DNA of 64,000 nucleotides from Bdellovibrio sp. BCCA. GTDB taxonomy: Bacteria; Bdellovibrionota; Bdellovibrionia; Bdellovibrionales; Bdellovibrionaceae. Shown one piece after another: positions 28,708 to 30,642 of this stretch; within the stretch, counting starts at the first letter, position 1; every line of letters starts with the position of its first letter. The notes beneath the pieces were generated by a model that saw nothing but the letters and a program-made list of their open reading frames with translations, had not been told where the DNA came from and ran no database searches. Made by a program: the position numbers and the translations under genes. The stretch lies in assembly GCF_037996825.1 (NCBI RefSeq), contig NZ_JBBNAC010000001.1, positions 2,728,001-2,792,000 of the forward strand, in the 5' to 3' direction.

Positions 28708-29037
28708 ATGAAAATTTCAAGACTTCTAACGACCGTTTTGGTTTCAACGTTGCCCTTTGCCACTGTTCAAGCAAAGGACTTCACAGGTTCTATTAAAGTG
28801 GATCGCTTTAAAACTTCAGACTACGCTTCACAAGCGAAAGTCAGCATGCAAGATGCCATTAACGCTGCTGAAAAAAAAGTTCCAGGGAAAGCCATCGAAG
28901 CCGAACTTGAAAGCGAACACGGCTACTTGATTTATGAAATCAAAGTGATGAAAGAAGATAAGAAGAAAGCGAAACTTAAAGTGGATGCCGGAAATCTTGC
29001 CATTCTCTCTATCGACGACCACGTTCTTACAGAATAA
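28708..29037 (+). CDS. Exported PepSY-domain protein
   Basis: A 109-residue periplasmic protein. Signal peptide MKISRLLTTVLVSTLPFATV then QA, cut before KDFTGS. The rest is one PepSY domain: VSMQDAINAAEKKVPGKAIE, then GYLIYEIKVMKED and a strand ending LAILSIDD. PepSY proteins often act as inhibitors or accessory factors of proteases or of redox membrane proteins. AAAGGAG lies 8-9 bases before ATG. It is a single gene ended by a strong hairpin. Confidence 0.85.
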   Translation: MKISRLLTTVLVSTLPFATVQAKDFTGSIKVDRFKTSDYASQAKVSMQDAINAAEKKVPGKAIEAELESEHGYLIYEIKVMKEDKKKAKLKVDAGNLAILSIDDHVLTE

Positions 29038-29043
29038 AAGCCA

Positions 29044-29072
29044 ACCGGCGCATTCACGCGCCGGTCTTCTTT
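29044..29072 (+). terminator. Rho-independent terminator between PepSY gene and ferroportin
   Basis: ACCGGCGC (29044-29051) / GCGCCGGT (29058-29065), 6-base loop, then CTTCTTT. It starts 7 bases after the PepSY stop and overlaps the last codons of the convergent ferroportin gene. A-rich sequence on the other side is short, so it acts best on the plus strand. Confidence 0.75.
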
Positions 29073-30352
29073 GACCACCTGATGAAGATCACATTCGCAA
29101 TCAACACAGCGGAGAGAGAGCCGTACACTAAGTATTTAAAATCTTCCGTATTAGGCAGCAGACTTCCCAAGGCAAACAACACAAGCGTTGCCAAAGTCGT
29201 CATAAGGTAGCTCAAAGAGTTCAGCTCTCCCCGCTTTGCTTCGGGAATAAGACGCTGGCGAAGTTCAAATTCGCCATTGGAAAATCCATAAAGTCCCACG
29301 CGAGATAAAAGAATAAATACCAGGAAAATGTAAACGGCCAAGTTTCCTTGAAAACTAAAAGCGATAATCGCGCCAATCAACATCACACCTTGAAACGCAA
29401 GATGTGCCTTTGAGCTTTTAATAATTCCTATTTTTTCAACCAGCATTGGAAAACTCAATGTCGACAGCAAACCAAACATGGCACCAAGTCCCCGAAACAA
29501 GCCGATTTCTGATTCCGGCAAGGCCATTTGGTCTTTCAAATATCCGGCCAACAAAACGCCGTGAGGACTTAGAACGGATAACCACAACAACGCATAACTA
29601 AAGATCAAAGGAAAAATGGGATTCGTTAAAGCCTTTTTCAAATCAATCTGAAAAAGATCTTTCCAACTTTCAGTCCCGCTGTTTATCTGCTTCTTCACAT
29701 TCGAACTATTCACGACGTTCTTAAGCAAAAGATATTCGGGAACAAAAGAAATCAAATTCCACGCAGCAATCATAAAGAGCCCAAAAAGATGAATAGAGGA
29801 AAGATCAATGGCATAAATAATTCCCGCCACTATAGGAGCTCCCACTTCCGTGCCAAGATCAATTCTTCTTAGCCAACTGTTAAACCAAGTAAGACGCTCA
29901 CTTGAAACCAACAATGGAGCCAAATCATTTCCCACGGCAATATCCGTGATGACAGAGCCTAACGACGCGAAAATTCCAAAAAAGCAAAGAACCGCAAAAA
30001 GCAGCAGTATCGATGGATCCGATAAAGACAAACCTGCGTGACTCGTCTTATCCAGATACCAAAAGCAAAAGATTCCTCCGAGGACCGCGAAGAATTGAAT
30101 CCAGACTCCCGCCGCGACCACACGACTTCGCTGATTTGAATCAATCCACTTTCCAGCCGAAGTCGTTAGAAGAAAAGTTCCGATCTTAACCATCAGGTAA
30201 TAAAGGGCGGCGATTTGCAACCGACCTGGAAACACATGCAGTAATGCAAAAGGAATTACAAAATCCCAAGCCTGATCGCCAGAGCGAGTTAAGAATCTAC
30301 CTAAGAGCAATTTTCGTTCAATATTAAAAAACTTTATCACAGTGTTTGACAT
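29054..30352 (-). CDS. Ferroportin (SLC40-type divalent metal exporter)
   Basis: A 432-residue membrane protein of 12 helices. It closely resembles the structurally known Bdellovibrio bacteriovorus ferroportin: LTRSGDQAWDF near the N-terminus, WNLISFVPEYLLL in the middle, RVGLYGFSNGEFELRQRL near the end. Metal-site residues corresponding to Thr20, Asp24, Asn196, Ser199 and Phe200 of that protein are present as Thr22, Asp26, Asn199, Ser202 and Phe203. It exports Fe2+ and similar ions. It is divergent from a CsoR-type repressor and its ATG is only 2 bases from the palindromic operator, so regulation by that repressor is very likely. Confidence 0.93.
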   Translation of the reverse strand: MSNTVIKFFNIERKLLLGRFLTRSGDQAWDFVIPFALLHVFPGRLQIAALYYLMVKIGTFLLTTSAGKWIDSNQRSRVVAAGVWIQFFAVLGGIFCFWYLDKTSHAGLSLSDPSILLLFAVLCFFGIFASLGSVITDIAVGNDLAPLLVSSERLTWFNSWLRRIDLGTEVGAPIVAGIIYAIDLSSIHLFGLFMIAAWNLISFVPEYLLLKNVVNSSNVKKQINSGTESWKDLFQIDLKKALTNPIFPLIFSYALLWLSVLSPHGVLLAGYLKDQMALPESEIGLFRGLGAMFGLLSTLSFPMLVEKIGIIKSSKAHLAFQGVMLIGAIIAFSFQGNLAVYIFLVFILLSRVGLYGFSNGEFELRQRLIPEAKRGELNSLSYLMTTLATLVLFALGSLLPNTEDFKYLVYGSLSAVLIANVIFIRWSKKTGA

Positions 30353-30375
30353 CCTATCCCCGGGGAGGGGATACT
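30346..30375 (+). promoter_or_regulatory. CsoR-type operator inside the csoR-like gene promoter
   Basis: A perfect -35 TTGACA (30346-30351), 18-base spacer and -10 GATACT (30370-30375). The spacer holds the inverted repeat TATCCCC (30355-30361) / GGGGATA (30367-30373) around GGGGA. CsoR/RcnR-family repressors bind such G/C-tract palindromes. A bound repressor would block this promoter and the region just before the ferroportin ATG at 30352. Confidence 0.8.
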
Positions 30376-30384
30376 CATATCCGT

Positions 30385-30642
30385 ATGAGCCACAAAAAGC
30401 AACATCTCAGTCATAAAGAAGTCTCGAAAAGACTCAAAAGAGCAAAGGGACATCTCGAAAAAGTCATTCAAATGCTCGAAGACGAACTGCCTTGCGTCGA
30501 CGTTGCACGACAGCTTCACGCCGTCTCTAACGCTATTATTGCCGCTAAAGGCACATACATTCACGATCACATTGAACATTGCTTGGATGGCAAGCATGTC
30601 GACTTGGAAGAACTTAAAGAGATTACGAAATATATTTCATAA
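30385..30642 (+). CDS. CsoR/RcnR family metal-sensing repressor
   Basis: An 85-residue all-helical repressor (DUF156). The start at 30385 gives MSHKKQHLSH; a longer start upstream would run through the promoter. Cys37, His62 and Cys66 occur with the spacing of the Cys-His-Cys site of copper-sensing CsoR (Cys, +25 His, +4 Cys); extra His residues at 3, 7, 10, 60 and 65 could suit nickel or cobalt. The family releases DNA upon metal binding. The neighbour across the operator is ferroportin, so it most likely derepresses metal export. Which metal is sensed is open. Confidence 0.9.
   Translation: MSHKKQHLSHKEVSKRLKRAKGHLEKVIQMLEDELPCVDVARQLHAVSNAIIAAKGTYIHDHIEHCLDGKHVDLEELKEITKYIS

Follow-up and report, generated by a model that had tools for sequence, protein, structure and literature searches.

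Which metal does a ferroportin handle when its gene lies back to back with that of a CsoR/RcnR-family repressor, and how are the two genes controlled? This question is raised by a locus in a Bdellovibrio genome (4.0 Mb, two contigs), which we studied within a window, the whole 64,000-nucleotide stretch of DNA that was analysed; G-numbers below denote genomes and L-numbers loci. A first-pass annotation had reported divergent genes for a ferroportin and a CsoR-type repressor, and both reading frames are present with their Pfam matches: the ferroportin (SLC40/FPN1 family, PF06963, 205 bits) occupies 29054-30352 on the minus strand and has 432 residues from its ATG, and the repressor (DUF156, PF02583) occupies 30385-30642 on the plus strand and has 85. 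An in-frame GTG at 30340 is an alternative ferroportin start. Between the genes, at 30355-30373, lies the palindrome TATCCCC-N5-GGGGATA, with 7-bp G-tract arms and GGGGA at its centre; as had been claimed, 2 bases separate it from the ATG of ferroportin (complement of 30350-30352). The observation of the pair with its palindrome was thereby confirmed, and its interpretation was supported in part.

The promoter between the genes had been assigned to ferroportin. Its hexamers, TTGACA at 30346-30351 and GATACT at 30370-30375, do stand 18 bases apart and match 10 of 12 positions in a promoter scan; both are read on the plus strand, and the promoter is therefore the repressor's own. The palindrome had also been placed exactly between the hexamers. 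Most of it does fall in the spacer, but the last four bases of its right arm (GATA) lie inside the -10 hexamer. TTGACA is invariant in 13 ferroportin loci, is kept in RcnA-linked loci without ferroportin, and precedes the repressor ATG by 36 bases in 10 of 13 species and by 37 or 39 in the rest. Because this distance is only 36-39 bases, the repressor mRNA is probably leaderless, starting at or next to the ATG (30346-30387). On the opposite strand, TTGACAT also reads as ATGTCA, where ferroportin apparently starts. To judge from the loci compared, this coincidence does not account for the conservation of TTGACAT, because in G022 (L020) the conserved ATGTCA is not in the ferroportin reading frame and TTGACAT is retained at L137 and L138 although there is no ferroportin there. 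The G022 locus also suggests that in some species translation of ferroportin may begin elsewhere than at the annotated ATG.

On the minus strand, no sigma-70-type promoter for ferroportin passed the scan at the operator. Pairs resembling TTGCTT-N17-TAGTAT, read by eye in some species, were rejected as a ferroportin promoter, as they are not kept in all. A scan for intrinsic terminators found none. Since the minus strand has no promoter of good consensus, the case for repression of ferroportin is built on overlap and conservation: the palindrome touches the ferroportin start region, so a bound repressor would be expected to block it. The operator could instead serve only autoregulation of the repressor, with ferroportin constitutive or otherwise controlled. 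It fits this alternative that the clear promoter at the locus is the repressor's, and that loci lacking ferroportin retain the TTGACA-palindrome block with unchanged spacing. We nevertheless think it quite unlikely, because in nearly every species 2 bases separate the palindrome from the ferroportin start, so that a bound repressor would cover the transcription start or ribosome-binding site, and because pair and operator have been gained and lost together among the Bdellovibrio genomes compared.

The distribution of the operator is that of a single site. A search of the genome for further copies, which the first-pass annotation had proposed, gave one exact match in 4.0 Mb and no second copy. 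Around it, a 27-bp promoter-operator block (30346-30372, plus strand; TTGACATCCyATCCCCnGGGAGGGGAT) is invariant at 24 of 27 positions across 11 species. Of the 20 bases immediately before the block only 2 are invariant, and of 68 third codon positions in the repressor gene only 5. The corresponding binomial P is about 1e-24, a rough figure given that the species are related. With this contrast and the sole exact genome match, conservation of the palindrome goes beyond chance. The palindrome is kept in 11 Bdellovibrio species and also in other families. Ten of the 11 pair-bearing species have a single exact copy of the operator in the genome, at the ferroportin locus (G023 has one mismatch), and the 13 other Bdellovibrio genomes searched have no exact copy. 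We also looked for a wider regulon by allowing 2 or 3 mismatches and rejected it: the matches were scattered and partly equalled by the control, and the sole clear one was the operator of a second repressor gene, csoR2, described below.

The gene pair is conserved along with its operator. We found the divergent ferroportin-repressor pair in 11 of 24 Bdellovibrio species searched. None of three genes tested from the flanks in the window was found at the other ferroportin-repressor loci; the flanking genes vary, and the pair itself is therefore the conserved unit. One neighbour, a gene for a small secreted PepSY-domain protein at 28708-29037, is convergent with ferroportin here and adjoins ferroportin in none of the other Bdellovibrio loci. 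Within the genus, the window-type repressor occurs beside ferroportin only and was not found in the 13 other species, save for one truncated remnant of 48 residues (L143 in G015, 1513-1656) that is 96% identical to the window repressor. G015 has no ferroportin, and its remnant looks like a loss of the pair. G004 and G014, also among the 13, have a more divergent ferroportin and lack the window-type repressor. No Bdellovibrio with the pair has NicO, and the sole RcnA in the genus is in a genome without ferroportin. At the G023 ferroportin locus a CusA/CzcA-type RND gene, compatible with several metals, follows the repressor.

The ferroportin is closely related to BbFPN (Bd2019) of Bdellovibrio bacteriovorus, the structural and mechanistic model for human ferroportin (5AYM; phmmer E 8e-174). 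The metal-site residues T20, D24, N196, S199, F200, H261 and R348 of BbFPN correspond to T22, D26, N199, S202, F203, H264 and R351 here and vary little or not at all in 15 homologues. On both counts, profile match and metal site, the protein belongs to the SLC40 family (PF06963). The ferroportin at L028 is identical to crystallised BbFPN across residues 1-433, and its locus carries the same repressor and operator as the window, so the result holds for the crystallised protein's own gene. The papers we found on BbFPN give no account of the regulation of its gene or of its physiological substrate. In liposomes BbFPN transports Fe, Co, Mn and Ni (PMC4633820), and its physiological substrate has been described as unknown (PMC11890741). 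The fungal ferroportin FpnA confers resistance to Ni, Co and Ga and has no function in iron handling (PMC11890741).

We then asked what the repressor itself says about the metal. It belongs to the CsoR/RcnR family (PF02583, 70.6 bits against a cut-off of 22.8), and its AlphaFold model has three helices (pLDDT 86). The best PDB match of the model is the Ni(II) sensor InrS (5FMN, E 4e-3, probability 1.00), and the 18 best structural matches are all CsoR/RcnR family members; such a match between a model and InrS is no proof of metal specificity. By family, the repressor would be a CsoR/RcnR-fold tetramer that binds DNA when metal-free. The Cys37-His62-Cys66 set with extra His that had been pointed out is present in the alignment: Cys37, His62 and Cys66 are invariant in 17 orthologues, which is not diagnostic of a metal, and His7 and His10 are invariant as well. 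Position A, before Cys37, is P, E, A, S, K or G in the 17 orthologues and never Tyr. Position C, where InrS-type Ni(II) sensors have an acidic residue, is D73 in the Bdellovibrio proteins, Ser in two RcnA-linked orthologues and Gln in two others. Where InrS has His21 (position W) the window protein has Lys5, with His7 two residues further on. It is not an RcnR proper, having Cys at the fourth position of the His3-Cys35-His60-His64 set and scoring 14 bits against the NCBIfam RcnR cut-off of 138. No NCBIfam subfamily could be assigned, as the matches to RicR (Cu), FrmR and RcnR are all weak and far under cut-off. The InrS ligand residues are likewise Cys-His-Cys, and the Cys/His pattern reportedly has no predictive value for the metal (PMC4235346, PMC7055735). 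Some members of the family respond to signals other than metals, for example FrmR to formaldehyde and CstR to persulfide, and CstR (7MQ1) is among the structural matches. Because all three metal-ligand positions are invariant in the 17 orthologues, and because the neighbourhoods contain metal exporters but neither frmA nor a sulfur gene, a non-metal signal is extremely improbable here.

The first-pass annotation had leaned towards Cu(I), and the same genome offers a direct comparison. A second DUF156 gene, csoR2 (G000:C1:2092694-2092939; L001; L034 4478-6970), precedes a gene for a copA-like P-type ATPase. CsoR2 has the Cu(I) fingerprint Tyr-Cys-His-Cys, and its operator is of the TAC-N9-GTA form (TATACCCCAGGGGGGTATA), in keeping with the GTA dyad known from CsoR sites (PMC3902906). 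By these features csoR2-copA is the genome's ordinary Cu(I) CsoR unit. The window unit has the family, fold, X-Y-Z ligands and, presumably, autoregulation in common with a CsoR-copA switch, but lacks its Tyr at position A, its GTA-dyad (type-2) operator, the window palindrome having TAT/ATA ends, and its copper gene. The partners seen for window-type repressors are ferroportin, RcnA or HupE/UreJ, with no linked copper genes. Because the genome has this separate csoR-copA unit with Tyr and a GTA-dyad operator, and because the window repressor is without Tyr, copper would be the least likely metal for the window repressor. A Cu(I)-sensing repressor with a copper-responsive ferroportin does draw on the Cys-His-Cys set, as in CsoR, and on the best sequence matches by phmmer and profile, which are the Cu sensors 2HH7 and 3AAI. 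However, the same residues serve the Ni sensor InrS, and human ferroportin does not transport copper (PMC11890741). Together with the absence of Tyr and of copper neighbours, this makes a copper response very unlikely.

If not copper, the alternative partners of the repressor are informative. We searched 369 genomes of the phylum for window-type repressors. In G247 and G318, neither of which has a ferroportin, repressor orthologues (54-57%) lie directly upstream of an RcnA/NicO-type exporter gene, and the TTGACA-N18-GATA promoter and the G-tract palindrome of the window locus recur there. These exporters match PF03824 with E 1.6e-20 and 2.9e-19, over the Pfam cut-off, and score 173 and 166 bits with the NCBIfam Ni/Co efflux model, under its cut-off of 195. 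In the repressor tree the two RcnA-linked proteins group with the Bdellovibrio ferroportin-linked ones in one clade (97/96), to which neither csoR2 nor RcnR belongs; the alignment is short, with few columns and long branches, and we disregarded the deep branching. In G069, G070, G079 and G202 the repressor and ferroportin genes again diverge, with a HupE/UreJ_2 gene after the repressor, and in G360 the repressor is accompanied by HupE/UreJ_2 alone. The HupE/UreJ_2 family is named for nickel-linked permeases.

A second, RcnR-like repressor lineage shows the same exchange. At L009, L010, L011 and L029 (L053, L037, L043 and L044 are the same or similar loci) an RcnR-like repressor lies upstream of ferroportin on the same strand, with type-1 operators such as ATAGTATA-CTCCCC-TATACTAT. 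RcnR-like repressors of this lineage also precede RcnA in G019 (216 bits against a cut-off of 195) and DmeF in G043 and G053, and type-1 operators are similar across the lineage. At L041 and L042 the repressor, DmeF and ferroportin are consecutive on one strand, and the L041 DmeF scores 350 bits with the Co/Ni exporter model (cut-off 250). L041 thus has the neighbours of a DmeR-DmeF Co/Ni switch, but its repressor belongs to a lineage distinct from the window's. The presence or absence of DmeF proved uninformative as a test of substitution, because under its cut-off the profile matches all CDF proteins. Because both lineages pair alternately with ferroportin or with RcnA/DmeF, ferroportin and known Ni/Co exporters are, by gene context, interchangeable partners in two repressor lineages. 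Ferroportin thus likely stands where a Ni(II)/Co(II) exporter would otherwise be. The sensed metal had been left open among Cu, Ni, Co and Fe; the comparative context now favours Ni(II)/Co(II), and the lean towards Cu is not supported.

We consider it likely, though well short of certain, that the locus is a Ni/Co efflux switch in which ferroportin replaces RcnA. The apo-repressor would occupy the G-tract palindrome between the divergent genes, covering the spacer and -10 of its own promoter as well as the ferroportin 5' end or ribosome-binding region, so that both genes are held down. Rising cytosolic Ni(II) or Co(II) would bind Cys37'/His62/Cys66, probably together with an N-terminal His, of which His7 is invariant. 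The metal-bound repressor would then leave the DNA, repressor and ferroportin would be made, and ferroportin would export Ni(II)/Co(II). Against the switch we count the poor consensus for a ferroportin promoter on the minus strand, the weak NCBIfam matches, including RicR (Cu), the Cu sensors heading the phmmer ranking, the Ni-type acidic residue at position C, which the RcnA-linked repressors do not keep, the RND gene in G023, and the below-cut-off NCBIfam scores of the G247/G318 exporters.

A broader reading is that the repressor responds to Fe(II), Mn(II), Zn(II) or a wide range of divalent metals, and that ferroportin exports iron or metals in general; we consider this unlikely. The four-metal transport by BbFPN in vitro (PMC4633820) speaks for it, as does the binding of several metals by CsoR/RcnR proteins in vitro (PMC4235346), and ferroportin also ends CusA/CzcA-type RND operons, which do not fix the metal. 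What counts against it is that two independent repressor lineages partner the Ni/Co exporters RcnA and DmeF. In addition, we know of no Fe or Mn sensor in the CsoR/RcnR family.

The proposed Ni/Co efflux switch has close relatives among known systems. In E. coli rcnR-rcnA, a CsoR/RcnR-family repressor gene is likewise beside a single Ni/Co exporter gene with a G-tract operator in the shared region; there, however, the exporter is RcnA, the repressor ligands are Cys-His-His rather than Cys-His-Cys, and the operator is TACT-G6-N-AGTA rather than TATCCCC-N5-GGGGATA. The InrS of the Synechocystis InrS-nrsD Ni(II) switch shares Cys-His-Cys, the lack of Tyr at A and a His-rich N terminus with the window repressor and is its best structural match, but its partner is NrsD instead of ferroportin and its His21 place is Lys5 here. 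A literature search, in which subscription journals were scarcely covered, returned no paper tying a CsoR/RcnR repressor to ferroportin. Each part comes from a known family; what is new is the combination, with ferroportin in the RcnA slot.

Somewhat more tentatively than for the switch itself, we think it probable that bacterial ferroportins are Ni(II)/Co(II) rather than iron exporters, having taken the RcnA slot by partner exchange in at least two repressor lineages. If this is true, the protein that serves as structural model for the human iron exporter would be a Ni/Co efflux pump in its own cell, and work treating the BbFPN metal site as an iron site would need rereading. Taken with the plant and fungal data, the ancestral role of ferroportin might then be Ni/Co handling, with iron export coming later. 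The regulator at BbFPN's own gene offers a direct test of the physiological substrate of the bacterial protein.

Other arrangements around ferroportin were also seen. The RcnR-like repressors at L009, L010, L011 and L029 (also L037, L043, L044 and L053) keep the RcnR residues His 3, 60 and 64, but their metal-binding Cys35 is replaced by Pro, Ala or Glu, so that their sensing site may consist of N and O ligands throughout. A further, His-rich DUF156 protein (tree clade 100/99) is encoded directly beside ferroportin at L011, L012, L027 and L029, and in G058 such a protein occurs together with an RcnR-like one beside ferroportin. At L038, L040, L045, L046 and L064 ferroportin comes last, after genes for a CusA/CzcA-type RND permease and an outer-membrane efflux protein (families tested in L038, the others assigned by similar gene order), and at L047 and L049 ferroportin precedes an RND gene.
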